Source: Bacteroides uniformis
Lineage (GTDB): Bacteria > Bacteroidota > Bacteroidia > Bacteroidales > Bacteroidaceae
Assembly: GCF_025147485.1 (NCBI RefSeq)
Contig: NZ_CP102263.1
Location: 1,563,501-1,627,500, forward strand
Reading direction: 5' to 3'
DNA: 64,000 bases
A model generated the notes under the pieces. It had not been told where the DNA came from. It did no database searches and saw only the letters and a list, made by a program, of their open reading frames with translations. The translations under genes and the position numbers were made by a program. Each line of letters starts with the position of its first letter. The first letter of the stretch is position 1. This document shows positions 36,450 through 50,634 of this stretch, one piece after another.

Positions 36450-36533
36450 GCCCAGATGGCGGAATCGGTAGACGCGCTGGTCTCAAACACCAGTGGATTC
36501 ACTTCCATCCCGGTTCGACCCCGGGTCTGGGTA
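36450..36533 (+). tRNA. tRNA-Leu (anticodon CAA)
   Basis: GCCCAGA at the 5' end pairs with TCTGGGT near the 3' end (first pair G:U), with discriminator A at 36533. The anticodon stem CTGGT/ACCAG holds the loop CTCAAAC, giving anticodon CAA. The T arm has CCCGG.TTCGACC.CCGGG, and a long variable arm (class II) fits leucine. CCA is not encoded. The last 12 bases form part of the attachment core of the integrated element, so the 3' end has been rebuilt by integration. Confidence 0.93.
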
Positions 36534-36534
36534 C
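36522..36534. other. Left attachment core (attL) of the integrated element
   Basis: CGGGTCTGGGTAC covers the T-arm/acceptor end of tRNA-Leu and is repeated exactly at 46802-46814. The sequences diverge immediately after the core. Confidence 0.88.
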
Positions 36535-36541
36535 AAGAAAG

Positions 36542-36582
36542 AAAGCTAAGTATTTGATAGTTCAATACTTAGCTTTTTCTTT
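36542..36582 (+). terminator. Terminator supplied by the element behind tRNA-Leu
   Basis: AAAGCTAAGTATT (36542-36554) and AATACTTAGCTTT (36564-36576) form a 13-bp perfect stem with a 9-base loop and a T-rich tail. It replaces the original tRNA terminator displaced to 46824-46861. Confidence 0.88.
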
Positions 36583-36590
36583 TGCTTGAA

Positions 36591-36612
36591 TTTTCCCCAC
36601 ATTTTCCCCACA
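36591..36612. repeat. Candidate integrase arm-site repeat, left copy
   Basis: A 22-bp sequence built from two TTTTCCCCACA units in direct order lies 57 bp inside attL. An identical copy occurs at 46641-46662 near the other end, and a partial one at 46769-46784. Such end-flanking direct repeats suit integrase arm-binding sites. Confidence 0.65.
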
Positions 36613-36646
36613 CGTGCAAAAAATATAGCAGTAAGTCATTATTTCT

Positions 36647-36678
36647 TTTGGTTGAACGTAGTAAATAAGTTACCTTTG
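36647..36678 (+). promoter_or_regulatory. Promoter of the element-borne fic gene
   Basis: TTTG (36647-36650) and TACCTTTG (36671-36678) lie 20 bp apart, 30 bp before the start codon at 36709. Confidence 0.65.
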
Positions 36679-36708
36679 AAAAGAAATAAAGCCTATTAAA
36701 TAAAAGTA

Positions 36709-37518
36709 ATGGAACAAGGTGTTTGGCAAGAAATAGAACTGTTGTACCAGAAGTTTCAAAAACTTGGTATCAGTGAAGCGGTGGACTATGACAAGTACTA
36801 CCTTTATTCTCTCATTACCCATTCCACAGCCATAGAAGGCTCAACGTTGACCGAACTTGATACGCAGCTTCTCTTTGACGAGGGAGTAACAGCGAAAGGG
36901 AAACCGCTTGTACATCATCTGATGAATGAAGATTTGAAGCAAGCGTATGAACTTGCCAAAACTGAATCAGGCAGTCTTGTACCTATAACTCCTGCTTTTC
37001 TGAAAAGGTTGAATGCAATGTTGATGCGTACTACTGGCAGCGTTCACAGTGTGTTGGGCGGCTCTTTTGATTCTTCTAAAGGAGAGTTCCGTCTATGTGG
37101 TGTTACGGCTGGTGTTGGTGGACATTCTTATATGAACTATTTGAAAGTTCCTGCTAAGGTGGATGAACTTTGTGCGATTCTTCAAGAGAAGCAAAAAAAA
37201 ATGGGAACACTTCGAGAACAATACGAATTGAGCTTTAATGCCCACCTTAATTTAGTAACTATTCATCCGTGGGTGGATGGCAACGGAAGAACGGCTCGAT
37301 TACTGATGAACTACATCCAATTTTGTTATCACCTTTTTCCGACCAAAATATTTAAAGAAGATAGAGAAGAATATATTCTTTCCCTGCGCCAATGTCAGAA
37401 TGAAGAAACTAATCAGCCGTTTTTGGACTTTATGGCAAGGCAGTTGAAGAAATCACTTTCTATAGAAATTGAACGATTCAATGTATCACGAAAGAAAGGG
37501 TTTAGTTTTATGTTCTGA
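36709..37518 (+). CDS. Fic family protein (AMPylation domain), element-borne copy
   Basis: The 269-residue protein carries the complete Fic active site HPWVDGNGRTAR (His186), for transfer of AMP or another nucleotide to a Ser, Thr or Tyr of a target. Residues 39-44 (STAIEG) match the inhibitory [S/T]xxxE[G/N] helix placed N-terminal to the core, so it should be a self-inhibited class II Fic. The flap region (about 125-145) and the substrate-loop GGSFDSSKGEFR are present. It is the only gene on the + strand inside the element, has a good promoter, and has a close paralogue just outside attR (46889-47698). The target is unknown; cargo roles as toxin, stress or phage-defence factor are conjecture. 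Confidence 0.9.
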   Translation: MEQGVWQEIELLYQKFQKLGISEAVDYDKYYLYSLITHSTAIEGSTLTELDTQLLFDEGVTAKGKPLVHHLMNEDLKQAYELAKTESGSLVPITPAFLKRLNAMLMRTTGSVHSVLGGSFDSSKGEFRLCGVTAGVGGHSYMNYLKVPAKVDELCAILQEKQKKMGTLREQYELSFNAHLNLVTIHPWVDGNGRTARLLMNYIQFCYHLFPTKIFKEDREEYILSLRQCQNEETNQPFLDFMARQLKKSLSIEIERFNVSRKKGFSFMF

Positions 37519-37543
37519 TACTATATAAAACAAGGATTGCTAT

Positions 37544-38284
37544 TTATGAGTTTATGGTAAACTTGCATGTGGGAAAGTTTGAACATCCATAGAAAGTGCC
37601 GTACTTGCCTTTCCTCAAAATGAGATGTCCTCCGCATTGAGGACAAACACCTTGATTTATTAGGCGTGAACTTCTGTATTGCCGAGCCTTTGCGTTATGC
37701 TTATGCTGTTTTAGTTTCTCTTTATCAGCGATTATGCGATTCTGGTTAATTGTCTGTATTATCCAATTTATGGTCTCCTGATTAAGAACAGCAGTTCTGT
37801 ATTGTAATATAGCACGTTTTAGATTATATCTGTTTACAACTATGTTATTGTCAGCATGCACTTTTAATTCCGCACTGTTATTGAAAACGACAATTGGAAT
37901 AAAAAGTATATCCGTTGAACATTTGAGCAAATGATGCAAAAATCTTACATGTCCAGCGTTTTGTTTTATCGGATTGTAAAATTGATGTTTACTTTTATAG
38001 ATGGTTTGCGTCCAGTATTCACCGTTCTCTCTGCCCAAAATCCAACCTTTATATCCCTTTGTTTCAATTACAAAGACACCATAAGGTGAAACTACAATAT
38101 GGTCAATTTGTGTTGAATATCCGTTACTTTCGAATAGTAAATCATTAAAAACAACATACTCTTCTGGTAACTCTTGAATCTTGTTATTCACAAGTTTTTC
38201 AGAATACTTGCCTTTCCACATTGGCATCTTCAATTTAATAAAGATTACCACTGCAAAAAAGATAACGGTGATGGCAATATGCAT
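37544..38284 (-). CDS. NERD-domain protein with C-terminal topoisomerase-type zinc finger
   Basis: The 246-residue protein has one N-terminal membrane segment (about 2-18), a NERD domain (about 28-140) and a C4 zinc finger (about 212-242, CPQCGG and YGCSNFPTCKF). The QIDHIVVSPYGVFVIETKG segment has the D...ExK pattern of PD-(D/E)xK nucleases, to which NERD is related, so DNA cleavage or processing is possible. It is convergent with fic and 9 bp downstream of the 147-aa gene, so it may be co-expressed with the two exported proteins. NERD proteins are common in cargo and defence regions; the role here is not known. Confidence 0.85.
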   Translation of the reverse strand: MHIAITVIFFAVVIFIKLKMPMWKGKYSEKLVNNKIQELPEEYVVFNDLLFESNGYSTQIDHIVVSPYGVFVIETKGYKGWILGRENGEYWTQTIYKSKHQFYNPIKQNAGHVRFLHHLLKCSTDILFIPIVVFNNSAELKVHADNNIVVNRYNLKRAILQYRTAVLNQETINWIIQTINQNRIIADKEKLKQHKHNAKARQYRSSRLINQGVCPQCGGHLILRKGKYGTFYGCSNFPTCKFTINS

Positions 38285-38293
38285 ATTACTGAT

Positions 38294-38737
38294 TTAATAG
38301 ATTCTTTTTATCCATCTTTTACTTGATTCAAATCCCCATTGAACATGCCATCTTCTTCCTGTTACTTTATCTAACAAAAGAAATTGATATATATTTTTTG
38401 TTGGATATAATTCAAATGTTCCACAGCCTGTACCAAGAGATAGGTCTTCGTTATTAAGGGTTGCAGAACCTTCTTTATCATCATCCAAAGACCATTGTAC
38501 AATTTCTATTTTCCCTGTCATTGTATCTAATTGCAGAAAATTATATATATTTTCTGTTGGATATAGCTTGTATCTATCAAGTCCATGCATACGAAAATCT
38601 ATATCTTCTACAATAGCATGTATTTTAATCAAAGTAGAATCATTAACTGTTTTGGTATGTGAAATGGAACTTTCATTTTGTGCAAAAACACATAATGGAA
38701 TTAAAAATAAATAAAAAATAATCGTAAGTTTCTTCAT
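38294..38737 (-). CDS. Exported protein with two LYPT-x-NIY repeats, function unknown
   Basis: The 147-residue protein has a signal peptide (1-19, CVFAQ). Two copies of one motif follow: LYPTENIYNFLQLDTMTG...VQWS (about 60-86) and LYPTKNIYQFLLLDKVTGRRWHVQWG (second copy, about 112-137; shown in full length but read as two parts LYPTKNIYQFLLLDKVTG and RRWHVQWG). The repeats suggest a small beta-structured, propeller-like or beta-hairpin unit. I do not recognise a function. It lies between the NERD gene and the 239-aa exported protein on the same strand. Confidence 0.75.
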   Translation of the reverse strand: MKKLTIIFYLFLIPLCVFAQNESSISHTKTVNDSTLIKIHAIVEDIDFRMHGLDRYKLYPTENIYNFLQLDTMTGKIEIVQWSLDDDKEGSATLNNEDLSLGTGCGTFELYPTKNIYQFLLLDKVTGRRWHVQWGFESSKRWIKRIY

Positions 38738-38792
38738 AGGTAAATCATTTAAGTGATTAAAATTAAGGGTAATAGTATAGCTATTACTGTAT

Positions 38793-39512
38793 TTATTTCT
38801 TCCTATTTACATCCCATTTGAAAGTATAAATATAATCTCCGATGGGAATGTTTACAATCAAAATCTTACCTTTTTTCCTTTTAATATTCATATAGCCAAT
38901 AATAGCTTCATCGGGATAAATAGTTGTGGTTTTTAAATATCCTTGTTCACGTATAGTTCGGTCATTATCCATCATTTGTCCTAATGTAAGCATTTGATTG
39001 GTAGATGCGACATTTGCTTGGTATGCTGCATTAGCGTCATAATGATTGGTTATGGTAGTGTAAGCATAACCATTAGAAGAATAAGACGTAGAATAGGATG
39101 TTGAATATCCTGCTGTTCCTGCATTAATGCCGGCAGAGATTCCATATAATGCCATAGCCCATGCTTGTGAGCGTTTTATTTTTTTTTGATATTCTTCATT
39201 TGTATATACTTCAAGTTTTAAAGTATCATCTTTTTTTGTTAGTAGATTAGAGTGTACGCTATCAGGTTGGAATACAATTGGGGTTTCACTTAAATTCTTG
39301 ATAAAAATATCCAAGTGATAGTATTTTCCATAATCATCTTTTTCCTCAAAGCATGAAAGACCTACAACAAAATCATTTTTGTTTAAATAAGCCCAAAATT
39401 TTCCATCATTATATTCTGTCAGGATAGAATCGTTTTGGGGGTATATGAATGTTTGGGCTTTACATATGGTTGAAAGCAATAAAAATATTACCACGCATAT
39501 ATTCTGTTTCAT
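38793..39512 (-). CDS. Exported protein, function unknown
   Basis: The 239-residue protein has a clear signal peptide (1-19, ICKA|Q) and no lipobox. The middle holds an alanine/glycine/tyrosine/serine-rich stretch (about 120-165, with repeated YSTSYSTSYSS and YAYTTI). The C-terminal part (about 200-239, IIGYMNIKRKKGKILIV) looks like an all-beta domain. No family is recognised. It is the most upstream of the three leftward cargo genes; a 318-bp gap with a nested inverted repeat separates it from mob. It may form a secreted or periplasmic module with its 147-aa neighbour. Confidence 0.7.
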   Translation of the reverse strand: MKQNICVVIFLLLSTICKAQTFIYPQNDSILTEYNDGKFWAYLNKNDFVVGLSCFEEKDDYGKYYHLDIFIKNLSETPIVFQPDSVHSNLLTKKDDTLKLEVYTNEEYQKKIKRSQAWAMALYGISAGINAGTAGYSTSYSTSYSSNGYAYTTITNHYDANAAYQANVASTNQMLTLGQMMDNDRTIREQGYLKTTTIYPDEAIIGYMNIKRKKGKILIVNIPIGDYIYTFKWDVNRKK

Positions 39513-39599
39513 ATCAACTAACTGTTTTAATTATACACCTCCAGCTGCCACAAGGACTTTATAATATCACGAAGCGTGGAACTGTAATGCCACGTCTTT

Positions 39600-39716
39600 G
39601 AATGAAGGTCCTGAGAAAACCTTTGTGTACAGATGTAACAATAGCAGCCCACGCTATAGCGTGAGAACCACTATGCTATTCTTGTACACGTTTGAAAGTT
39701 TCTCAGGTTTTCATTC
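39600..39716. repeat. 117-bp nested inverted-repeat structure between mob and the cargo
   Basis: Five symmetric pairs are nested around one centre: GAATGA/TCATTC, CCTGAGAAA/TTTCTCAGG, TGTACA/TGTACA, AATAGCA/TGCTATT, and the perfect 14-bp palindrome CACGCTATAGCGTG at 39650-39663. The rest of the gap 39513-39830 has no supported gene; a smaller CGTGG/CCACG pair lies at about 39575-39595. It could be a structured RNA, a replication or transfer site, or a MITE-like unit. Confidence 0.75.
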
Positions 39717-39830
39717 GCAAGAAATAAGCATAACGCTTCTTCTAAATTCTAATATGTCTTGGATAGAGTAGCCTCAATCCGCTTACAAAGATATTTAATT
39801 TTATTGAGATACAATCAAATACTATCATAA

Positions 39831-41234
39831 TTACATTCTGAATCCTCTACTTTTTCTTGGTTCTTCTGCTAATTGTCGCAAACCTTGCCTTAATTTTTCC
39901 CATTGCTCCTTAAACCATTCGCCTATCGGCTGTCTGTTTATGGTCAGTATCAGTTTGCTATCATCGGTTGGATTCTTTTCCACCTTGAAAATATCATTCT
40001 TGATGTCAAACTTACGTTTGTGTTCTTCGGAATAAATCCTACCATTGCATCTGATAGCTTCCTTTTTTGTCAAAAGACTGTTTATCATATCTTTGGTAAA
40101 TCCGATGGCATAGCAGAGCTTTTCCATTCTCAACATTTCTTTGAGCAATGGGAACCAGTTGAACGCTTTTTCAAGAATGGCGTTCAATCGTGAAATTTCC
40201 TTGTCTTTGGCTTCAAGTTCTTGATTATGTATTCCTTGCAGGTTACGAATCTGCTTACTATGCTGTTCCTGCATTTGTTGCATCTTGGCTTTTAATTCAT
40301 CAATGCCCTTGTCACGTTTGGCAATTTCATGACGTAAATTCTCGTTAGATTGTTCTAAATCTTTCAACTTTCCACTTCCGAAAAGAGAACCTACACCACT
40401 GGTTATGGCAGTGGCTACATCGGTAGCTGCACTTTTGAGTTTGTCCGTGCGTATCTCTGCTTTTACTTGTTTGAGTTCTTGCTCGGCAAGGCTTACCTGT
40501 TGCTCCTTGTGTCGTTTGGTTTCCTCTATACGTTGCAGTTCGGCTTTCTGTTTTTTTATGATGAAATCGTTTCGCTCCAAGTGCTCCTTACCAGTGACAG
40601 CTTTTGCCTGCCCACGTTCCATCAGAAGTATATTGGAAGCCAAGGTCTGCATGGCTGCCATATCCTCGTCATTGAGCTTTCTGCTCTTTCCGGTTTCGTG
40701 GTTCATCCAGTCGAAAACGATATGGGCATGATAGTTCGGCTTGAACCATCTGTTCCCGACCTTGAAGCTTTCCCTGTCTTCCGCTTCCGGTTGACCGTTC
40801 AGCCAATGCCCTTCATCCTTGTGCAGGAAGATTTGCAACGGTGTGATGCCCCAGCGTCTTTGACACTCTTCACCGAATTTGCGTACATCAGCCAGTGTGG
40901 TATCCGGTCTGATGAGCAATACTCCTTCACGAATGGGTGAACATCCCGCCACCTTGATAATTTTTCCATTCTTTCCCTTGCGTTCCCTTTCCTTTTCCTG
41001 CATGGCACGTCCGGTCTTTTCCTTGACCATTTGCTTGATATTGTCATAATGAGTTCGCAGTTCGGGAGTGCCGAAGTCGGGATTTATCCACTGTTCGTTG
41101 TTGGTGGAGAGTTCGGGAACGACATAGATTCTGGACTCCCCGATGTTACGCATATATTCGGCAGTCCTTCGGTTGTGTACCTCGCTCGATGCGATGTTGC
41201 AAGGCTTGATGTGTATGCTTGATTTTGTTGCCAT
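39831..41234 (-). CDS. MobV/Pre-type relaxase (mobilization protein)
   Basis: The 467-residue protein matches the MobV (Pre/Mob) relaxases that nick oriT and lead the strand into a recipient. The N-terminal domain (about 1-200) has the metal-binding His motif in two parts, HKDEGHW (138-144) and NYHAHIVFDW (167-176). Residues about 225-365 form a long coiled coil rich in Gln, Glu and Lys, and the C-terminal part is basic. It follows a hairpin-rich region that is the likely oriT. In NBU1 the corresponding gene is mobN1. Without own secretion genes it needs a helper's coupling and T4SS proteins. Confidence 0.9.
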   Translation of the reverse strand: MATKSSIHIKPCNIASSEVHNRRTAEYMRNIGESRIYVVPELSTNNEQWINPDFGTPELRTHYDNIKQMVKEKTGRAMQEKERERKGKNGKIIKVAGCSPIREGVLLIRPDTTLADVRKFGEECQRRWGITPLQIFLHKDEGHWLNGQPEAEDRESFKVGNRWFKPNYHAHIVFDWMNHETGKSRKLNDEDMAAMQTLASNILLMERGQAKAVTGKEHLERNDFIIKKQKAELQRIEETKRHKEQQVSLAEQELKQVKAEIRTDKLKSAATDVATAITSGVGSLFGSGKLKDLEQSNENLRHEIAKRDKGIDELKAKMQQMQEQHSKQIRNLQGIHNQELEAKDKEISRLNAILEKAFNWFPLLKEMLRMEKLCYAIGFTKDMINSLLTKKEAIRCNGRIYSEEHKRKFDIKNDIFKVEKNPTDDSKLILTINRQPIGEWFKEQWEKLRQGLRQLAEEPRKSRGFRM

Positions 41235-41280
41235 AGCTTCTTTTCTTTGTTTACAATTGATTTACTTTGCTCGCTTTCGC

Positions 41281-41447
41281 AGAGGGGTTCTTAGGGGTAA
41301 CCCATAAGCGGAGATTGCAAAGAGAGGGTCACTCTTTGCTCGGGGTTCTCAGGGGTGAAACGCCCTGAGTGGGTTATTAGGGCAAAGTCCTAATCCCCTC
41401 GGGAGAGCCCACAACTACGAAAGCGGAGCGTGTAGTTATAGTGGGCT
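41281..41447. other. Likely oriT: cluster of hairpins upstream of mob
   Basis: Four inverted repeats lie in 167 bp: GGGTT/AACCC (41285-41303), GCAAAGAG/CTCTTTGC (41317-41339), CTCAGGG/CCCTGAG (41348-41369) and AGCCCAC-AACTAC/GTAGTT-ata-GTGGGCT (41406-41447). The last overlaps the 3' end of the primase gene. Position between prm and mob equals that of oriT in NBU1-type elements. No nick site can be read directly. Confidence 0.7.
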
Positions 41448-42402
41448 ATAACCGAAAGCCGTTTTTCTTTTTCGGTGACTGGCTGCTCATCCCTTTGACG
41501 GATTGGACTTGCCTTTTTCTTTCAACCTGTTTCTGTAAGTATTCGTTCAAGTCCTTGCATCCGCTGTAAATCTGTGAAGCGTCACGGATGTATCGGTCTC
41601 TGCTGTATTCCTTGCGGATTTGTTGGAGAGCTTCTATGCCTGCATGGTCGTTGTCAAAAAAGCAGTGGATGCGTTCGTAATTGCCCAACGGATAGAGAGC
41701 CTTGTTTACATTCGATACGGAGTTTAATACGATGTAGTCCTGTCCGTCCAACTCCGGATAATTCGGGCAGCTCTCCTGTCTCAATGTCAGAAAGGAAAGG
41801 TAGTCCATGAAACCCTCGAACACATAACAAGTGTTCCTCGCTTTCCCCGATTGTCTGATGTGGGAGATTTCCTTTGGGGCGATGCAGCCCTTGAAATAGC
41901 GGTTGCGAACCTCAAACCCACCAGAACCATTGGGAAAGGCGATGGCAAAGTATCGCTTGCCGTTGTGGGTGAAACGTGCTTCACTACATTCTCTTTTCGC
42001 CAGTTCTATGTTAATTCCTCTACCTTGCAAGTAGGCAAGCAGGGCAGGAGATGACAGCGGAACAATCTCCAACTGTTGGAAGCTCGGCTCAGAAGAGCTT
42101 TGCTTTCCAAAAGAGAAAGATACCGGGCGCACGTGCGGTGTCTGCTCTGCTATCCGTTTCAAGATGTAAGGTACATGGTCGGTAGCGTACAGATGTGCAG
42201 CCAGTGCAATGATGTTTCCGCCCTTTCCCAAACCGAAGTCATACCATTGTTCACGTTCGGTATTCACTTTGAACGATGCTTCACTCTCTTCCCGAAACGG
42301 AGATTTGTACCAAAGGTTGATACCTTGTTGTTTTACTGGTGAATAACCCAAGCTGTGCAGGTAGTCGGCTATTCGTATGCTTTTAGCTTCTTCTATTGTC
42401 AT
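41446..42402 (-). CDS. Element primase (Toprim domain), with a CHC2-like region lacking Cys
   Basis: The protein from ATG at 42402 (MTIEEAKSIRIAD) has 318 residues; an extension to 42462 is open but unneeded. Residues about 15-80 align in pattern with the DnaG zinc-ribbon domain (YKSPFREESEASFKV and WYDFGLGKGGNIIALA), but the metal-binding Cys/His residues are replaced, so no zinc site is visible. The Toprim domain (about 195-280) keeps the catalytic pattern FEGFMDY (Glu) and CFFDNDHAG (DxD). Its match in NBU1 is prmN1, involved in excision and transfer. It lies next to the likely oriT. Confidence 0.85.
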   Translation of the reverse strand: MTIEEAKSIRIADYLHSLGYSPVKQQGINLWYKSPFREESEASFKVNTEREQWYDFGLGKGGNIIALAAHLYATDHVPYILKRIAEQTPHVRPVSFSFGKQSSSEPSFQQLEIVPLSSPALLAYLQGRGINIELAKRECSEARFTHNGKRYFAIAFPNGSGGFEVRNRYFKGCIAPKEISHIRQSGKARNTCYVFEGFMDYLSFLTLRQESCPNYPELDGQDYIVLNSVSNVNKALYPLGNYERIHCFFDNDHAGIEALQQIRKEYSRDRYIRDASQIYSGCKDLNEYLQKQVERKRQVQSVKGMSSQSPKKKNGFRL

Positions 42403-42633
42403 TTTCTTGCGGATTTGTTGGTGAATGAAAAATGATGATTTGATGAATTTGGAATTTAACACACTGTTAAACAGCGTTATATCGGCTCATCTTTTTCTCA
42501 TCAGATTGCTTGCCAAAAGAGAAATGATGTTTTCTTTTTTCATCAGCAATCGTTGTTGATGAGTGTTTGATGAATACATATCTATCTGTAAGGCAATATA
42601 TTACTTCCCTTATTCATCATTTCATCAAAATAA

Positions 42634-43824
42634 TTAGATAGCGGTCAGTTGTTCTTTCGTTACCGTATAAAACCGACCAGTTTTCCTTTTCGGCTCATAG
42701 TGGCACTCACGATGGGGTGCGAACTCATAAGCGGTGTAGGATAGCGAATTGTGTGCAGAAGTAAGTTTCCATACTTCCTGCACAACTTTCCTCACTTGAT
42801 ACTTTTCAACCTTGACCTGTGAATAGAGTAGCAAGGTTACAAGGTCGTTCAGGCAGAATGATACGCTTTCCACGTTCATGTTCGACATGATGTCAAGCAA
42901 CAACTCGGTCATTTCTATTTCCAGTCGGTTGCGGTTGCTTCGGATTATTTTCTGCAAGGCTGCGGTATGTGTCAGTCTTGGGTTGAACCACATACGGCTT
43001 TCCTGTGTTGTGGATAGTTCCCTTTGGGTCAGGAAATAAAGAAATGCGGGTATTTCCGCTTTTAGCTTTTGCAGAAAGTTGGTATCATCACTCTGCAACG
43101 GCATTATCTTCCGCACCCAGTAGCGTGTTTCTCCTGCGTCTATGAGTATAGGCAGATATTCGTTGTTGGAACATAGCACGAACTTGGCGAAGAAAGCAAT
43201 CTCCGTTCGGTCTTTGCCTTTGGCTTCCACCTTGTAGGTGAAAGTGGTGCTCAGGTTTTTCAACCGTTCGCTGTCTTCCCTGCGGTTGAGCAAAACTTCG
43301 TCCACAACGATTAGTAGCTTTCCTGCCCAGTCGGAATTGAACTGGCTGCGGAAATCTTCGTTGGTGTTGAAAGTCACGTTGTTCTCAAACACGGCTTTCA
43401 GGAAGTTCAAGAACGTGCTTTTGCCTGTGTTGCGTTCTTCTGAAACAAGTAGGACAATAGGCAGCTTCTGTGTCGGCTGTAGATACAGCAGTTGCATATA
43501 GTCCATACCCAGCTCGTATTGTTCCCCGAAGATGTGCCGCATCAAGGATTGGATGTGGGAGAAGTCCCCCTGCTGCGGTTTATGCTCTATAGGCTCGTAA
43601 AGGTTCAGAAATCCCTCAATCTCCTTTTGGTAGTTCAAATGGTTGGGAACGGTGCAAAAGCCGTCATACTTGGGGACGGTGGCAAGATAATTCTTTCCAT
43701 AGTCCTGCCGTAATGTGCTGTTGTTCCATACGACACGTTTCTTCTCATAACCGCCATTGGCGCATGGCTGATTGACCACCTTGTACAAAGTTGTTCCTAC
43801 GCGCATATATTCTTCCTCCTTCAT
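42634..43824 (-). CDS. P4/SF3-type helicase (primase-helicase family)
   Basis: The 396-residue protein has the ATPase core of phage/plasmid SF3-type helicases: Walker A SEERNTGKST (about 128-137), Walker B KLLIVVDEVL (about 168-177) and the SF3 motif C region with FAKFVLCSNNEYLP. The C-terminal winged-helix-like part (about 330-395) resembles DNA-binding domains of P4-type proteins. It should unwind DNA at the element's origin or during excision and transfer. It is separated by 4 bp from the HTH gene upstream, so the two are co-transcribed. The position matches orf3 of NBU1. Confidence 0.85.
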   Translation of the reverse strand: MKEEEYMRVGTTLYKVVNQPCANGGYEKKRVVWNNSTLRQDYGKNYLATVPKYDGFCTVPNHLNYQKEIEGFLNLYEPIEHKPQQGDFSHIQSLMRHIFGEQYELGMDYMQLLYLQPTQKLPIVLLVSEERNTGKSTFLNFLKAVFENNVTFNTNEDFRSQFNSDWAGKLLIVVDEVLLNRREDSERLKNLSTTFTYKVEAKGKDRTEIAFFAKFVLCSNNEYLPILIDAGETRYWVRKIMPLQSDDTNFLQKLKAEIPAFLYFLTQRELSTTQESRMWFNPRLTHTAALQKIIRSNRNRLEIEMTELLLDIMSNMNVESVSFCLNDLVTLLLYSQVKVEKYQVRKVVQEVWKLTSAHNSLSYTAYEFAPHRECHYEPKRKTGRFYTVTKEQLTAI

Positions 43825-43828
43825 AGGC

Positions 43829-44143
43829 TTAGATTAAAGGATTGTGTTCACCTAAAATTCTCTGAATGTCGGATTGTCGGTATCTGACCTTGTTTCCAAC
43901 CTTTACAGGCTTCAGATAGTTTTTCTTAGACCAGTGCCAGAGTGTGGTATCACAAACACCGCACATCTTTTTCACTTCCTCTTTGGTTAGATACTTCTCC
44001 TTTCTTGCTTCCGCAATGGCGGTAGAAAGTTCATGCTTCGCACGGCTGATTAACTGGTTGGAGAATAATAGCAAATCTTCTCCTGTTACTTCCAACTTGA
44101 TGTTGCCGTTTCCGTTTTGGATAATTGCCAATATGTCTGTCAT
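43829..44143 (-). CDS. Helix-turn-helix protein, excisionase-like
   Basis: The 104-residue protein has a MerR/excisionase-type winged HTH at about 50-101: YLTKEEVKKMCGVCDTTLWHW, then YLKPVKVGNKVRYRQSDIQ (each shown in part of 20 residues or less: LTKEEVKKMCGVCDTTLWHW). The N-terminal half is a helical region that may dimerise. In NBU-type elements a small HTH protein at this position (orf2x-like) takes part in excision. It may also control its own operon with the helicase. Evidence for the DNA-binding fold is strong; the excision role is inferred. Confidence 0.82.
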   Translation of the reverse strand: MTDILAIIQNGNGNIKLEVTGEDLLLFSNQLISRAKHELSTAIAEARKEKYLTKEEVKKMCGVCDTTLWHWSKKNYLKPVKVGNKVRYRQSDIQRILGEHNPLI

Positions 44144-44312
44144 AGGCTTCTTGAAACTGCCGGTTGTAAGACTTCCCGTTTCGGCAGTATTATAAACGAA
44201 AAGCCACTACCCCGATTAGGATAGTGGCGCAAATATATAATGAAAATCAATCGTAAAACAATGATATTCAATTCGTTAAATTCGTAAAAACGAAAAGCGA
44301 ATTAAACGAACT

Positions 44313-45254
44313 TCAATTGGATAGATAGGCTTTCAATTCCTCGATGGCTTCATGGTCTTCACCAATGTCTTTTACCAGTTTCTTGCTGTTTCCAAACGGA
44401 GAAGTGAGATTTCTGTATGCTTTCTGGATGCCTCTTTCGTGGACGATTTCTTGTTCCTTGAACTGCTCGTACAGTGCGTTTCTGAAAGTCTTGATGGGAC
44501 ACTTCCGCATGAATCGGTATTCCACCAGTGCGATAAACAGTCGTGCTATATCTGTTTCCGTAGCATGGGTTTTCAATCGTGTGCCAATTCTTTCAATCAG
44601 TATGTCATGCCTTTCTATCAGAAGTTCTGGCAACGTGCGTGTGTCGGCTTTGCGTCCTGCGGTCTTTGGCTGTTCTTCCTGCAGCATATCTGTTTCTTCC
44701 TCGTCCATGTCTTCATCTTCTTCTATTGCCCATTCCACGAGAGAGTTTTCCTCAATGGCTTTCTGTTGCTTCCTGAATACTTGCCAGTCCTCTTTGGTTC
44801 TCATGCCATTGGCGATGCTTTTTCTGATAATGAATTTGACCATGCCGGAAACAAGCCATTTGTATAAGGTGGGAATATCCTTTCTTTTGGTCAGTTCCTC
44901 ACCCTGTTCCACCATGCACTCATAGCTTCGTCCGTAATAGAGCCATGCAAGCATGGCAGGAACAATACTTCTCTTGTTCGGGGTATGAAACTCATTCACT
45001 ATCTTCTCGGCAAGGTCTGATTGTAAAAGAACATTTTCCAGTTCCTCGAAATCAGGGTTTCTATCATCGCCTATTCTCTTGCGTGCTGCTTCTTTATATT
45101 TCGGAACAAGCCTTACAGCCGTATTGAAAATATTGAAGAACCCTTTGAACTTCTTGTCGTTCATTTCTTCTACAAAATCGGCATATTCATTCGGATGGCT
45201 GTCGAGCCATTCCTTTATCAGTCTTTTGAAATTATCATATTCCTGTTGTCCCAT
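44313..45254 (-). CDS. Element protein next to the integrase, function unknown
   Basis: The 313-residue cytoplasmic protein is helical and rich in charged residues, with a strongly acidic segment at about 175-195 (EEDEDMDEEETDMLQEE). No known catalytic motif is visible. Proteins at this location, directly downstream of integrases of NBU-type elements (orf2-like), are required for excision in NBU1, so a similar role is plausible here. It starts 7 bp after the integrase stop and is surely co-transcribed. The 169-bp gap to the HTH gene holds no recognised feature. Confidence 0.78.
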   Translation of the reverse strand: MGQQEYDNFKRLIKEWLDSHPNEYADFVEEMNDKKFKGFFNIFNTAVRLVPKYKEAARKRIGDDRNPDFEELENVLLQSDLAEKIVNEFHTPNKRSIVPAMLAWLYYGRSYECMVEQGEELTKRKDIPTLYKWLVSGMVKFIIRKSIANGMRTKEDWQVFRKQQKAIEENSLVEWAIEEDEDMDEEETDMLQEEQPKTAGRKADTRTLPELLIERHDILIERIGTRLKTHATETDIARLFIALVEYRFMRKCPIKTFRNALYEQFKEQEIVHERGIQKAYRNLTSPFGNSKKLVKDIGEDHEAIEELKAYLSN

Positions 45255-45261
45255 ACAAGTA

Positions 45262-46599
45262 TCAGTCTAATAGTTTTACAAGGTCTTTCTTCATTTCTTC
45301 GTCAATATCCCTGTATCGTCTGAAAGCTTTGCTTCCCTCCTTGTGTCCCGACAGTGCGGAAACAAGGTTCGGGTCTTTCACTTTTTTATAGATATTGCCG
45401 ATAAACGTACGTCTTGCCAGATGGCTGCTTGCCACTTCATAAATAGGTCGTTTGATTTCGTTGTGCGTCAACGGGTCTAAGATTGTTACGATGCGGTCAA
45501 CTCCAGCTAATTTGAATATCTTTTTTATGGCATCATTGTACTTTTGCTCGGATATGAACGGCAACAGTTTTCCCTCATATTCTTTGTAGCGTTCAAGGAT
45601 TTCTTTCGCTTTGTCGTTAAGTGGAACACGTACCGTAACCGGATTCCCCTCTTTGGTTTTCTTGGGAATATATTCTATGGCTTCATTGACCACATTTAGT
45701 TTGGTCATTCGGTACAGGTCGCTCACCCTGCATCCTATCAGTGTCTGAAATATGAATATATCCCTCTGTATTGCCAGTTGTGGGGTGGCAGAAAGGTCTG
45801 CATTAAAAATCCTGTCCCTTTCTTCGAGTGTTATATAATAAGGTGTACCATATGTACACTCCTCTATCGGAAACTTGTCGAAAGGTCTGTTTGTGGTGCG
45901 TTTGTTATCGAAGCACCACAGGAAGAATGTGCGTATTCTTGAAAAACAGTCTATCAGCGTGTTTTTGCTTCTGGGCTGTGGTGTCCTCTTTTCGGGAATG
46001 GCTTCATAAATGCTCGGGTAAAGTTCATAATACTGGTATTCGTTCTGAAAGAAATCCCACATATCCCGAAGCGTGTCAGGTGTTACCAAATCCACATCAA
46101 GGATAAAGCCCTTTTGTCCTCTCTTTGTAGCCCTTACATATAGTTCATAACGCAGTAAGGCTCTTTTGACAACCCGGAAATTTTTCTTTCGTACTTCCGA
46201 CAAAGGGTGCTTGTTTAGAAATTCATCGAATAGTTCTCCAATGGTAGGCTTGATAACCACTTCCTCCGGCAAAAAATATTTTTCAGGATGGTAAAATTTA
46301 TCAAGTGTTGTTTTTAGCCATTCTTTGTCTATTGCTTCCTTTTCTTGTTGATATACCTTCTCGATATAGGTTTTCAACTGGCGTATCTCTTCATTTATAT
46401 GGGTACGCATTTCTTCATTGCAGACAGCTTTCGTTTTTACACATTCGTCTTTATCATCCCATAGATTGGGATTGATGGCTAACTGAGTAGGAGCAACGGA
46501 GTCTAACTGCCTTCCGTTTCTAAAACGGACATAGATTGTAGCCATGGATTCTGTATCATATCGTTTGGCTGCTTTTTTAATGATAAAGGTTACTTTCAT
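45262..46599 (-). CDS. Tyrosine site-specific integrase
   Basis: The 445-residue recombinase integrates the element at tRNA-Leu. Domains in order: an arm-binding N-terminal domain (about 1-95), SAM-like core-binding domain (about 115-235) and catalytic domain (about 255-445). The tetrad/hexad residues are Arg291 (GCRVSD), Lys near 316, His393 and Arg396 (HLARR), His419 (LSGHKE) and nucleophile Tyr429 (FRRYRD). The gene lies next to attR and reads inward. Candidate arm sites occur at both element ends. It is the counterpart of intN1. Confidence 0.95.
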   Translation of the reverse strand: MKVTFIIKKAAKRYDTESMATIYVRFRNGRQLDSVAPTQLAINPNLWDDKDECVKTKAVCNEEMRTHINEEIRQLKTYIEKVYQQEKEAIDKEWLKTTLDKFYHPEKYFLPEEVVIKPTIGELFDEFLNKHPLSEVRKKNFRVVKRALLRYELYVRATKRGQKGFILDVDLVTPDTLRDMWDFFQNEYQYYELYPSIYEAIPEKRTPQPRSKNTLIDCFSRIRTFFLWCFDNKRTTNRPFDKFPIEECTYGTPYYITLEERDRIFNADLSATPQLAIQRDIFIFQTLIGCRVSDLYRMTKLNVVNEAIEYIPKKTKEGNPVTVRVPLNDKAKEILERYKEYEGKLLPFISEQKYNDAIKKIFKLAGVDRIVTILDPLTHNEIKRPIYEVASSHLARRTFIGNIYKKVKDPNLVSALSGHKEGSKAFRRYRDIDEEMKKDLVKLLD

Positions 46600-46640
46600 A
46601 GACTTTCAGGTTGAATTTTACTCTGCTGCAAATATAAATA

Positions 46641-46662
46641 TTTTCCCCACATTTTCCCCACA
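46641..46662. repeat. Candidate integrase arm-site repeat, right copy
   Basis: Exact 22-bp copy of 36591-36612, with two TTTTCCCCACA units, lying between the integrase start and attR. Confidence 0.65.
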
Positions 46663-46768
46663 TCTGCTAAATATTTTGCAATTCGATTAACTTGGATTAA
46701 AATTTAATAGGATTATAACATATTGAAATACAGTGTAATTGTGGCGTTTTTCCGCATTTTTCTTTTTA

Positions 46769-46784
46769 CCCACATTTTCCCCAC
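46769..46784. repeat. Partial arm-site repeat next to attR
   Basis: CCCACATTTTCCCCAC matches the central 16 bp of the 22-bp repeat and lies 18 bp inside attR. Confidence 0.55.
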
Positions 46785-46801
46785 TTTAATTATTTCAAAT
46801 G

Positions 46802-46814
46802 CGGGTCTGGGTAC
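46802..46814. other. Right attachment core (attR)
   Basis: CGGGTCTGGGTAC, identical to the core in tRNA-Leu at 36522-36534. It marks the former 3' end of the chromosomal tRNA-Leu gene and is followed by its displaced terminator. Confidence 0.88.
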
Positions 46815-46823
46815 GAAATAAAG

Positions 46824-46861
46824 AAGCGGGGAAAGTTTTAATGCTTTTCCCGCTTTCTTTT
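46824..46861 (+). terminator. Displaced original tRNA-Leu terminator
   Basis: AAGCGGGGAAAG (46824-46835) and CTTTTCCCGCTT (46844-46855) form a 12-bp stem (one wobble) with an 8-base loop and a T-rich tail, placed 9 bp after attR just as the element's own hairpin is placed behind tRNA-Leu. Confidence 0.85.
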
Positions 46862-46888
46862 TATACTTATCTTTTATGCCCTTTGCTC

Positions 46889-47698
46889 ATGGGAACAGAT
46901 ATCTGGCAAGAGATAGAAGTACTGAATCAAGAATTTGTGAGGCTTGGTATCAGTCAGTCGGTAGACTATGAAAAGTACTACCTCTATTCGCTTATTACCC
47001 ATTCTACTGCTATTGAGGGCTCTACACTTACCGAATTGGATACCCAGTTGCTTTTTGATGAGGGGGTAACAGCCAAAGGAAAGCCGTTGGTCTATCATCT
47101 GATGAATGAGGATTTGAAGAAGGCATACGAACTCGCCAAAGAAGAAAGTGCACAAAATGCGGAAATTACGCCTGTTTTCTTACAAAAATTGAATGCTGCT
47201 CTAATGCGTACTACTGGGAGTGTATATAATGTAATGGGCGGTTCTTTTGATTCTTCTAAAGGTGAATTTCGTTTGTGCGGCGTTACTGCTGGGGTGGGCG
47301 GGTGTTCTTATATGAGCTATCCTAAAGTTCCCGCTAAAGTAGAAGAACTTTGTTCTATATTGAGAGAAAAGCAAAAGAATATGGAAACATTTCGGGAACG
47401 ATATGAATTGAGTTTCAATGCTCATCTCAATTTGGTAACCGTTCATCCGTGGGTAGATGGCAATGGGAGAACGGCTCGTTTGTTGATGAACTATATCCAG
47501 TTCTGCCATCATCTTTTTCCGACGAAAATCTTTAAAGAAGATAGGGGCGACTATATTCTTTCTTTGCGGCAGTCGCAAGAAGATGAGAACAGTCAGCCTT
47601 TCTTGGACTTTATGGCAGCGCAGCTGAAAAAATCATTTGCGTCAGAGATTGAGAAATACAATACTGGACGTAAAAAAGGTTTTAATCTCATGTTTTGA
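46889..47698 (+). CDS. Fic family protein, chromosomal paralogue outside attR
   Basis: The 269-residue protein from ATG at 46889 has exactly the length of the element-borne Fic and is highly similar over its full length. HPWVDGNGRTAR (His186) and the inhibitory STAIEG helix (39-44) are intact, so it should be an active, self-inhibited class II Fic. The frame extends upstream to 46799 through the attR core and terminator; that part is not gene sequence. No TAnnTTTG promoter is visible between the displaced tRNA terminator and the start, unlike the element copy. It is probably a remnant of an earlier, related integration. Confidence 0.9.
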   Translation: MGTDIWQEIEVLNQEFVRLGISQSVDYEKYYLYSLITHSTAIEGSTLTELDTQLLFDEGVTAKGKPLVYHLMNEDLKKAYELAKEESAQNAEITPVFLQKLNAALMRTTGSVYNVMGGSFDSSKGEFRLCGVTAGVGGCSYMSYPKVPAKVEELCSILREKQKNMETFRERYELSFNAHLNLVTVHPWVDGNGRTARLLMNYIQFCHHLFPTKIFKEDRGDYILSLRQSQEDENSQPFLDFMAAQLKKSFASEIEKYNTGRKKGFNLMF

Positions 47699-47869
47699 AA
47701 AGCGACGATTCCTTCCTGATAAGCTCATATAGGCATTAGCTGATTGTGCTGTATCATCCTTTTGTATTGGGTTATTCTCAAAATATTCTCTTCTCGGCAT
47801 TAAATACAAAATAATGGGTGTAAAATGCAAATTTATTTCGTAGATACTGTTTTCGCATTTATTTTTTTC

Positions 47870-47927: not shown

Positions 47928-49316
47928 ATGACAAAACATGTTCCTCTTTTTTTACCTCTCGGAAGTATTCGGTTACTGACGATATTCTTCTCTTTTTGTA
48001 TAATCTTTGTTCATCCGGCATTGGCTGACAAAATGGCTGAAAGCCCCGAACTTTTCGATACTGCTTTCACCTTGCAGGAAAGGCTTGATATTCCCGACGG
48101 GTTTGTTCAAAGAGAGATGGTCTATATTTCCATTCTTTTAGGTACATTGGTGCTGTGCCTCTTCTTTTTCTTCATGCAGAGGCGGATGAAGAAATTGAGG
48201 GAAAGGGACCGGGAGAGGTATCTGCAACTGTTGGAAGGCATTCTTGATAATCTTCCCATTGCGGCAAAAGTGAAGGATGTGAATGATGGGATGCGCTATA
48301 CTTTTTGGAATAAAAAGGCAGAGGAACTCTTTGAATGTTCGGCCAGAGAGGCTATAGGCAAGACGGATTTTGAAACAATGCCAGAGGCTGCGGCTTTAAT
48401 TAGGAAGGAGGATGAAGAGTTGGTCAAGACGGGGATTCCACAAGAAGGTATACGACGTTTTTTTACCAAGAAGAACGAGGAGCGGTTTACCTTCCAGAAC
48501 AATAATTTTATAAAGCTTTCTGATGGTCGCAAGTGGATTGTTTATACTGCTTGGGACATTACTGATTTGAAAATCATGGAGCGCAAACTACGTCTGGCCA
48601 AAGAGGAGGCTGAGGAGTCCAACCGGATAAAATCGGCTTTCCTGGCCAATATGAGTCATGAGATACGTACTCCGCTCAATGCAATAGTTGGTTTTTCGAG
48701 TATTTTGGCCACGGAAGTGTCTGAGGAAGAACGGGTGGAGTATCTCGATATTATAGAGCGGAATAATGAACTGCTGTTGCAGCTCATCAATGACATTCTG
48801 GATTTGTCGAAGATAGAAGCCGGTACATTGGAGTATGTCTATGCTAACGTGGATATCAATAAAATGGTGTCCGAGATAGAGCAGGCTACAAGTATCAGGC
48901 TGACCAATAAAGACGTGCGTCTGGTCACGGTTACGCCATTGCCCGGTTTGCTGCTGTATACCGATCAGCGCAGAATTACTCAGGTATTCAATAACTTCAT
49001 CAGTAATGCGCTGAAGTTTACTGCTGCCGGTAGCATTACCATTGGTTACGGAATGCCCGAAAATAGCTATATCCGTTTTTATGTCACCGATACCGGGACG
49101 GGGATATCATCTGAGAATGCGCAGGGGATTTTTAACCGCTTTGTGAAGCTGGATTCCTTTAAGCAAGGTACCGGACTGGGACTGGCCATTTCGCAAAACA
49201 TTGTGAAGGAACTGAAAGGAGAGATAGGGGTGGAGTCACAGTTGAGCAAGGGCTCCACTTTCTGGTTCACGTTGCCTTTTTATAAGATGGACGCGCACCG
49301 TTCTATCTTTCCTTGA
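47928..49316 (+). CDS. PAS-containing sensor histidine kinase
   Basis: The protein from ATG at 47928 has 462 residues. Two membrane segments (about 13-33 and 65-83) enclose a periplasmic loop of only about 30 residues; a PAS domain (about 100-215), HisKA domain with His244 ([11 protein letters not shown]) and HATPase domain follow (N box [12 protein letters not shown]1 DTGTGIS, G2 [10 protein letters not shown]). It has no receiver domain and no response-regulator gene next to it, so it is an orphan kinase whose partner is elsewhere. The short loop suggests sensing in or near the membrane, or through the cytoplasmic PAS domain. An in-frame TTG 9 bases upstream is a less likely start. Confidence 0.92.
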
Positions 49317-49326
49317 TGCTGCAAGC

Positions 49327-50286
49327 TCAATCCAATGAAGGGACATCGATTGTCTGGCTTTCCTCGTTCCAGTTGTCAAGGGTGAATTCTCCGGATGATT
49401 CTTCGGAAAAGATGTCTCCCAGAGTGAGGGTCAGGGTCAGTTTGGAGTTTGCTTCCAAAGGTCCGTTCAATGTTTGCTTGAAACTTTTCACGTTTCCATT
49501 TTTCAGTATGATGCTCATCTGGAATTCCGGTTTCCCGAAAGAAGGGAAGAGCATGACGGTGGCGTTGCTCATTTGTGTACCGTCGACGGAACGGACCAGA
49601 GGGAAGGCTACTGTGCGTGGGCTTCCTTGAGGAGCGGCGGTGTAGAAATTCAGTTCTCCAGCAATATTGGTGATGCGCACCACCATGCTGTCGATGCTCG
49701 AACTGAGGATGCCGTTGTTCTTGTCCTTGATGATTACTTTCAGCCCGGTCACTACCCGTTTGAGAGATGCTTTCAGGTCCTCACTTCCAATGTTGGCAGG
49801 CTGGACGGCGTGTACCAGGTCGAATACCGGATAATAGGTTGTGTCCGCTTCCATTTTGAATAGGGAGAAGTGTTGCTGGGACATGTCTTCGCCTAAGATG
49901 TAGACCGGGTCCCTCATGAGAGGATGTGCATAAATCGGCTCCTCGTATTTAGGGGTTCCCCAATAAATCATGTTATAGGGACCTGCGGGTAAGGATAACT
50001 CTCGATTGACGCCATCGTTATAGAAAGCTCCGTCTTTAACTTGGTAGTAACCGTAAAAAGGTGTCAGCTTCCGGTTTATGTAGTTTCCATAATAAATAGA
50101 GGTGCCCGCCTTGCAGGGCATGATGGTCAGTATACCGGTCAGCGGGCTTTGTCCGCTTTCTGTGGACACGTCCATCAAAAGTCGTGGCGATACCAACTCA
50201 CTGCTTTTTTCTATCTGGGGCAGATTGTCATCGGCGCAGCTTGCCACGATTGCGGCAAGTACTGCAAATACTACTAATTTTTTCAT
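49327..50286 (-). CDS. FimB/Mfa2-like fimbrial family lipoprotein
   Basis: The 319-residue protein has a lipobox IVASC (Cys17). The LPAGPYNMIYWG segment (about 98-109) and the two-domain beta-rich layout ending FTLDNWNEES resemble the Mfa2/FimB fimbrial-anchor families and related DUF5119 proteins of Bacteroidetes. These are surface lipoproteins exported through the outer membrane; anchor proteins lack the processing that main fimbrillins undergo. No other fimbrial genes lie in this window, so it may be a lone surface lipoprotein. It is convergent with the histidine kinase, 10 bp away. Family assignment is moderate. Confidence 0.6.
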   Translation of the reverse strand: MKKLVVFAVLAAIVASCADDNLPQIEKSSELVSPRLLMDVSTESGQSPLTGILTIMPCKAGTSIYYGNYINRKLTPFYGYYQVKDGAFYNDGVNRELSLPAGPYNMIYWGTPKYEEPIYAHPLMRDPVYILGEDMSQQHFSLFKMEADTTYYPVFDLVHAVQPANIGSEDLKASLKRVVTGLKVIIKDKNNGILSSSIDSMVVRITNIAGELNFYTAAPQGSPRTVAFPLVRSVDGTQMSNATVMLFPSFGKPEFQMSIILKNGNVKSFKQTLNGPLEANSKLTLTLTLGDIFSEESSGEFTLDNWNEESQTIDVPSLD

Positions 50287-50634
50287 TATCTGTTAAGCTT
50301 TAGGTTGTTCTTCCTTGAGAACGTTTTTAGAAAGAAATGGTTCTTTGTACTCCGGAGAAAGTATATTGGGGATGGAAAAGTGAGGTGAAACCAATCCCGG
50401 CATTGAGGGGAATGGAAAGAATAACCCCTCTTCAAAAGGCTTAGAGAAGGGATGGAAAACAAATTATACCTTTTTTAGTAACATTTTAGAAGCCTTGATT
50501 AACGAAATCATATACTCTTCATAACAATTTCTCGACACTCTTTTTCTTGTTCCTTCATACATTTGCATCCGAGTTCTTTGGTATTAATTGAAGAACACAA
50601 TGAATCTTTGATATTAACCATTAAATAATGTACA
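50287..50634. promoter_or_regulatory. Divergent control region before the glycan uptake operon
   Basis: No gene is supported in this gap. A TACATTTG -7 box lies on the + strand at 50558-50565, 70 bp before susC, without a good -33 match. GAGGGG/CCCCTC (50405-50430) and AAGGCTT/AAGCCTT (about 50436-50498) are short inverted repeats that might be regulator targets. Confidence 0.45.

Follow-up and report, generated by a model that had tools for sequence, protein, structure and literature searches.

A 64-kb stretch of the Bacteroides uniformis genome, referred to here as the window and belonging to the 4.63-Mb single-contig genome G000 that was searched in full, contains, at 36522-46814, what looks like a complete NBU1-class integrative and mobilizable element. 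This assignment is well supported and was made by likeness to the published description of NBU1, not to its sequence. The element is almost certainly mobile and, apart from cargo that is partly new, typical of a known class; more unusual is its Fic gene (fic), which is linked to the attachment end and seems to persist once the element has gone. The best overall explanation, to which we assign a probability of roughly 85%, is an NBU1-class element whose attachment-linked fic is left behind on decay. The recent movement of such an element between two species is documented at base resolution, and a Fic that seems to outlive its elements makes it possible to test, in gut bacteria, whether genes become domesticated at tRNA attachment sites.

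Core to core, with both cores included, the element measures 10,293 bp. A preliminary description of this DNA had proposed a size of about 10.3 kb, 13-bp core repeats and a tRNA-Leu target, all of which were recovered. The end structures and the two fic genes are as follows.

36450-36534, + strand: tRNA-Leu(CAA), the integration target, whose 3' end is the left core (ARAGORN)
36522-36534, + strand: left attachment core (attL), CGGGTCTGGGTAC, the last 13 bases of tRNA-Leu (direct repeat)
36534-36584, + strand: hairpin just inside attL, then T-rich DNA (inverted repeat I4)
36590-36612, + strand: left arm-type repeat ATTTTCCCCACATTTTCCCCACA, 23 bp (exact copy)
36647-36678, + strand: promoter pattern for the element fic, TTTG ... 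TACCTTTG, whose consensus we take to be Bacteroides-type (regular-expression scan)
36709-37518, + strand: fic, element copy, 269 aa, Fic/DOC, with catalytic HPWVDGNGRTAR at 186 and inhibitory-type STAIEG at 39
46640-46662, + strand: right arm-type repeat, an exact copy of ATTTTCCCCACATTTTCCCCACA
46763-46785, + strand: third arm-type repeat, degenerate, with 3 mismatches
46802-46814, + strand: right attachment core (attR), an exact 13-bp copy of CGGGTCTGGGTAC (direct repeat)
46889-47698, + strand: second fic (fic_c), outside the element, 269 aa, about 80% amino-acid identity to the element fic

When up to one mismatch is allowed, CGGGTCTGGGTAC matches the window twice (0.03 expected; two matches in 0 of 100 shuffles), and the exact copies in the whole genome number two, both being the cores of the element. 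Likewise, the 64 kb contain ATTTTCCCCACATTTTCCCCACA at the ends of the element only, twice exactly and once with 3 mismatches; these repeats are probably arm sites for the integrase. The hairpin inside attL may act as a replacement terminator for the tRNA gene.

The most direct indication of movement comes from G103, another species of the same genus. An element occupies the same tRNA gene in this genome and is identical at 10,292 of 10,293 positions, without a gap. The flank to the left of the tRNA gene is 81.5% identical over 1,243 bp, with 26 gap columns, and blastn gave no match to the right of attR in the 3.5 kb examined. Because a single substitution in 10,293 bp stands against 18.5% divergence in the adjoining flank, recent site-specific horizontal transfer with exact ends, not descent, is by far the best explanation for the element shared by the two species. 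With this copy in G103, the element is not unique. A relative of the element is present in Bacteroides bouchesdurhonensis (L009/L010; G030) as two identical head-to-tail copies of 11,973 bp, which match the window element at 97.1% over the int-to-mob part and at 93.8% over the left 1 kb; the cargo between these parts is different. Nor is the same DNA found at this site in all relatives: G056 has an unoccupied site with the order GreA-HIT-MPG-tRNA-core-fic, a single exact core in its whole genome, and a fic region that aligns with 46900-47766 of the window. Four TraG genes of the host genome exceed the TIGR03783 cut-off, which was exceeded in 0 of 14 controls, and could belong to helper elements.

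Ten genes lie between the cores, with fic on the + strand and the other nine on the - strand. The nine, together with one intergenic stretch, are listed below.

37544-38284, - strand: NERD-domain protein with a topoisomerase-type (Top1) zinc ribbon, cargo slot (profile match)
38294-38737, - strand: EXP1, without a family match, export-type N-terminus by eye, cargo slot
38793-39512, - strand: EXP2, export-type N-terminus by eye, weak DUF6705 match below cut-off
39831-41234, - strand: mobilization protein, a putative relaxase, 467 aa (77% amino-acid identity to an annotated CP103138.1 protein)
41235-41445, no strand: intergenic stretch between the mobilization and primase genes with short inverted repeats, candidate origin of transfer (oriT)
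41446-42462, - strand: primase, CHC2 zinc finger and Toprim (profile match)
42634-43824, - strand: DUF5906/primase-helicase type ATPase (profile match)
43829-44143, - strand: HTH_17 protein, excisionase-like (profile match)
44313-45254, - strand: DUF6043 protein (profile match)
45262-46599, - strand: tyrosine integrase, 445 aa, Arm-DNA-bind_5 and Phage_integrase (profile match)

NBU1 is about 10.3 kb in size and has the gene order int-orf2-orf2x-orf3-prm-mob. The domains of the window element and their order fit this arrangement of int, orf2, an orf2x-type helix-turn-helix (HTH) gene, orf3, primase and mob, and by position we take the primase to be PrmN1-like, the DUF5906 protein Orf3-like, the HTH_17 protein Orf2x-like and the DUF6043 protein Orf2-like. 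The domains were found in the order that had been read from the sequence alone (int, orf2-like, HTH, helicase, Toprim primase, mobilization gene, then cargo), and the fic, NERD protein and two exported unknowns described for the left third correspond to fic, the NERD/zinc-ribbon protein, EXP1 and EXP2, with the export N-termini recognized by eye. The integrase contains GCRVSD at 289 in the same protein as the Arm-DNA-bind_5 domain; on our own reading of the sequence, the arginine in this motif would be the box-I arginine that is reported to be kept in the NBU1 integrase, a member of the IntCTnDOT group (PMC8138268). Like NBU1, itself a Bacteroides uniformis element, the window element has a single tyrosine recombinase of the IntCTnDOT/NBU1 group and lies in the 3' end of tRNA-Leu, as entered for NBU1 in Table 1 of one review (PMC5704250; group from PMC8138268). 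NBU1 is listed in the same review with a MobP relaxase, a difference from the MobV label used in the preliminary description, and with a toxin-antitoxin ('TA') maintenance gene (PMC5704250). Because of this 'TA' entry, NBU1 may carry a Fic/Doc-type gene too. Two further articles also mention NBU1 (PMC6764341; PMC4755523).

Two cfxA-bearing relatives place the backbone in a wider context. The element of B. fluxus YIT 12057 (L012) shares Int (89%), DUF6043 (78%), HTH (91%), helicase (89%), primase (79%) and Mob (77%) with the window element and has a 12-bp core at both ends; it differs in lacking fic and in holding a CfxA beta-lactamase gene in the cargo slot. The CP103138.1 record of Bacteroides fragilis BFG-403, which we take to be Tn4555-like, shares Mob at 77% amino-acid identity and has one 12-bp core, whereas its annotated integrase and replication-type genes are others and it was deposited as a circular plasmid. 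A phage or satellite was considered and rejected: in scans of a viral collection, made with six short peptide patterns each, one contig matched for fic and another for an integrase of 40% identity.

The identity of the mobilization protein is less secure. The annotated protein to which it is 77% identical on CP103138.1 is named 'mobilization protein', and an HxDE...HxH-like motif is present at 138 and 167, which is presumably that of a relaxase. Several negative results tell against this identification: no relaxase family was matched in Pfam or NCBIfam; a PDB profile search with an alignment of the protein gave 8 weak matches, none a relaxase; and the AlphaFold model, with a pLDDT of 47, was unusable for fold comparison. 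The MobV label was not confirmed by the Mob_Pre profile (PF01076), which Pfam did not match here and which was not found across the genome, a weak negative since the same search was positive in 0 of 14 controls. Of the NBU1-type assignment as first proposed, the site and integrase type agree with the published description, the exact cores and the transfer between species add support, and the MobV label is not confirmed. For the oriT-like hairpins of that proposal, only short inverted repeats of 7-11 nt were seen, within 41264-41459, and the stretch is at most a candidate oriT.

The linkage of fic to the attachment core was surveyed in 158 genomes of the genus (its own included, one genome per species), with full-length loci counted at 70% amino-acid identity or more. 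This gave 28 full-length loci in 25 of the 158 genomes. The resulting table has 31 rows, with G146 (56% amino-acid identity) and two plasmid-collection rows of P. massiliensis standing outside the 28; fragments in G011, G044, G108, G182 and contig 26 of G024 were left uncounted. A core with at most one mismatch lies within 400 bp upstream of fic at 23 of the 28 loci (19 exact), at a distance of 68-176 bp. Chance positioning of fic beside the core was rejected, with 0 such linkages from 300 shuffled cores, as was the idea of fic as ordinary variable cargo, given the 23 loci at a core; the tRNA-Leu end pattern itself is present in 132 of the 158 genomes. Outside the genus, where 251 family genomes were drawn on at E<=1e-90, an exact core was found 163-178 bp upstream in 8 of 9 further fic loci, with G387 lacking a core.

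These 23 loci fall into three arrangements. Five are flanked by a core on either side and accompanied by an NBU1-type integrase (G000, G103, G030 twice, and G123). Ten directly follow tRNA-Leu and had no linked integrase that could be found (G113, G028, G128, G111, G056, G127, G135, G164, G026 and G110). The remaining eight follow a second core: six are to the right of tRNA-Leu on the same contig, including fic_c of the window, and in G129 and G183 the tRNA-Leu pattern was not found on the contig. No linked NBU1-type integrase was found for 18 of the 23 loci, for which 2 to 16 kb to the right of fic were searched; the search of whole genomes covered integrase matches at E<=1e-100. The preliminary gene account included the element fic and missed fic_c, just outside attR. 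The spacer before fic_c (46815-46888) is 74 bp long, close to the 68 bp of G135; in most other core-linked copies it measures 140-178 bp. The promoter pattern is present at the element fic and at both clade-mates of fic_c; because it was missing upstream of fic_c, this resident copy may be silent, while the element fic has a promoter of its own.

Solitary fic genes are best read, in our favoured interpretation, as probable left ends whose fic outlived the element, because some of them keep arm repeats or fragments of element genes. A strict arm motif precedes 4 of the 10 solitary tRNA-Leu copies and 4 of the 8 second-core copies. Backbone pieces persist behind fic as HTH, DUF6043 and integrase in G113 and as DUF6043 and integrase in G014 and G109; mob pieces were found in G127 and G300, and G209 keeps NERD and part of EXP1. 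In P. massiliensis, contig OY726010.1 holds a 1,225-bp left end, consisting of fic and a cut-off NERD gene, that is 99.6% identical to the window, and G273 has the same left-end arrangement. Degenerate look-alikes of the arm repeat were seen by eye in G164 and G026.

The fic sequences also appear to be under constraint. Pairwise dN/dS (NG86) has a median of 0.093 over the 116 usable pairs of 406, usable pairs being those with dS of 0.05-1.5. For 12 pairs of copies taken as solitary the mean is 0.097, one pair involving G123, which lies between two cores with an integrase. Thirteen pairs were also chosen for comparison, of which seven have dS below 0.5; dN/dS in these seven is 0.10 to 0.27.

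How fic_c itself came to lie beside the element has a local answer within the same framework: the site may once have held a tandem array, with fic_c being the left end of an older element whose right part was deleted. The core-fic order repeated on both sides and the two identical tandem copies in B. bouchesdurhonensis fit this proposal, which can be held no more than tentatively, as the 74-bp spacer has neither arm motif nor promoter pattern, the hairpin is unlike that of the element, and the window aligns with the G129 flank again from 47796 onward, 97 bp beyond fic_c and without an intervening element gene.

A number of observations weigh against the general view of fic as a gene left behind by decaying elements. 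Five of the 28 loci have no core at up to one mismatch (G024, G151, G196, G197 and the outer G030 copy). Of 53 named loci fetched by their integrase, such a fic was found solely in L009/L010, many of these loci ending at contig ends, and L012 and L014 are complete and without fic. Integrases do occur elsewhere in three genomes, at 100% identity on another contig in G183, at 44% on another contig in G056 and at 55% to the left of the fic core in G012. A core with one mismatch lies 1.6 kb to the right of the solitary fic in G111 (L177, 1584 bp from the fic start); core-fic-core without an integrase could here be a mini-element. Strict arm repeats are missing at 6 of the 10 solitary loci (G056, G028, G135, G110, G164 and G026) and at fic_c, so that fic may have begun as a host gene there, and the regular-expression scan found no promoter pattern upstream of 6 of the 28 copies, fic_c included. 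The unoccupied site was seen in another species only, in a set with one genome per species. On selection, the close pairs G026/G191 and G014/G113 have dN/dS of 0.27, two of the 28 genes are pseudogenes (G109 and G183, with 4 stops each), and the branches behind the average of about 0.1 may have run inside mobile elements. Finally, the fic of G056, fic_c and the outer G030 fic form one clade (96/95) without arm motifs, and a host origin of this lineage is possible for that reason.

This last group is one ground for a reversed direction, in which fic would be an old Bacteroidaceae host gene beside tRNA-Leu and the element would have captured a copy of it through imprecise excision or when tandem elements recombined. 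Both the G056 fic and fic_c stand behind a terminator-like hairpin, and the groups G026/G191, G014/G113 and G007/G127 are recovered in the fic tree as well as in the marker tree, which is weakly resolved. The same trees disagree on G151, which joins G007/G127 in the former and is apart in the latter. Moreover, solitary loci keep element-type left ends, arm motifs and decayed backbone genes, and an old host gene would sit poorly with full-length copies in only 25 of the 158 genomes. The right flank of G129 is 93% identical to the window over 994 bp (49308-50300), and the fic at that place in G129 is of another clade. On balance, a host origin is unlikely. A non-mobile genomic island shared by descent is highly improbable: several relatives have the same site and a similar gene order, but the comparison of element and flank in G103, the open integrase frame and the exact repeats oppose it.

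Under the favoured reading of left ends that outlive their elements, the following course of events is envisaged. The tyrosine integrase would recombine the 13-bp core of the excised circle with its counterpart in tRNA-Leu(CAA), at the 3' end of the gene, so that the tRNA 3' end is restored, with the arm-type repeats at both ends probably bound by the integrase and the HTH protein probably acting as directionality factor. The mobilization protein and the candidate oriT would let a helper conjugative element carry the element to new hosts. As the first gene inside attL, with its own promoter pattern, fic would be part of the left end; when an element decays at tRNA-Leu, this end would often stay and fic would be kept. 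The element of the window may have landed beside such a resident fic, namely fic_c. A bolder extension, doubtful at present, is that an autoinhibited Fic AMPylase travels within the attachment end of NBU1-class elements, is left beside tRNA-Leu at every insertion and becomes domesticated once the element has died. The tRNA-Leu site of Bacteroidaceae would then be a renewable slot for Fic variants, and Fic may serve host defence or competition between elements at the same site.

As for the activity of Fic, the element protein scores 55.6 bits against Pfam Fic (cut-off 24), and its nearest solved relatives by sequence are FICD proteins. All 31 rows have the catalytic HPx..GNGR..R and inhibitory-type (S/T)xxxE(G/N) motifs, although two rows contain stops elsewhere; these motifs we take to mark the catalytic site and in-cis inhibition of a Fic/DOC AMPylase. 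PADLOC matched the protein to PDC-S04 (6.3e-21) and SoFic (1.9e-16), a profile similarity shared with these single-gene defence candidates. The window Fic differs from SoFic in its length of 269 aa, compared with the 361 positions of the SoFic profile, and it did not reach the NCBIfam SoFic equivalog, falling far below the cut-off (20.6 bits against 550); this tells against a defence role, for which the argument is one of profile similarity only. Sofic is reported to act by AMPylation in abortive infection (PMC12249575). Because of this report and the PADLOC matches, host defence or stress control is held to be the likeliest role, and Fic may tentatively be regarded as an autoinhibited AMPylase that forms a single-gene stress or anti-phage module of benefit to the host. 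Judged by titles and the opening lines of abstracts, a literature search found no paper joining NBU1 with Fic, or on Fic in Bacteroides integrative or conjugative elements at tRNA sites.

The one backbone carries interchangeable cargo, including CfxA beta-lactamase, candidate defence or toxin proteins, and exported unknowns. Relatives differ in the stretch that separates the mobilization gene from the left core. In B. fluxus YIT 12057 it holds a CfxA-family beta-lactamase (L012 7209-8174; NF033100, 713 bits against a cut-off of 625), in B. propionicigenes an Abi_2 protein, and in B. bouchesdurhonensis four unknown open reading frames (ORFs), of which one of 186 aa lay outside the Pfam scan; the left core was seen for all three. 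The left core was not seen in three other slot loci, which hold a DarT-domain protein, over the Pfam cut-off and below that of NCBIfam, in an Avimuribaculum metagenome-assembled genome, a zinc-ribbon/PNPOx protein in Phocaeicola intestinalis, and aspartyl-protease/TPR and DUF2971 proteins on a P. massiliensis contig. The window slot contains NERD, EXP1 and EXP2. EXP1 and EXP2 stand beside fic again in G024, where the integrase genes nearby have 43% and 36% identity, and G209 repeats fic-NERD together with part of EXP1 (83%). The slot is variable, as the preliminary description held for the left third, and the cargo set it called new is not unique, because G103 repeats all of it and G024 and G209 parts; fic, which it counted with this cargo, is mostly linked to the attachment core.

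Several further loci were observed at or near this site. In G123 (C1 410398-453130; L186, L214, L215), 42.7 kb lie between two cores, with a fic left end and an integrase of 78% identity at the right end, and the interval is read as a large or composite relative. G014 (L130 3227-14693) has a different insertion, of 11.4 kb, at the same tRNA-Leu core. It encodes a tyrosine recombinase of its own, together with a YhcG-type nuclease, an AAA protein and a primase that is 61% identical. Primases of 62-67% identity occur near a core in L128, L135, L175, L194 and L209. In G047 (L217, from 454 in the reversed locus), a core, an element-type hairpin and a partial arm repeat are followed by a different gene instead of fic, an arrangement read as another kind of left-end relic. 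G197 and G196 (L182, L184) have an element-like hairpin and partial cores (2 and 3 mismatches) away from tRNA-Leu, and are possibly secondary-site insertions. Contigs OY726032.1, OY726010.1 and OY725987.1 of P. massiliensis TSDC17.2-1.1 (L193, L194, L195) were deposited as circular plasmids and carry pieces of such elements; OY725987.1 holds tRNA-Leu with greA/hit/mpg homologues, and these 'plasmid' contigs look like chromosome contigs. Within the window element, inverted repeats at 44203-44228 and 44272-44310, between the HTH and DUF6043 genes, are possibly a terminator and a regulator site.

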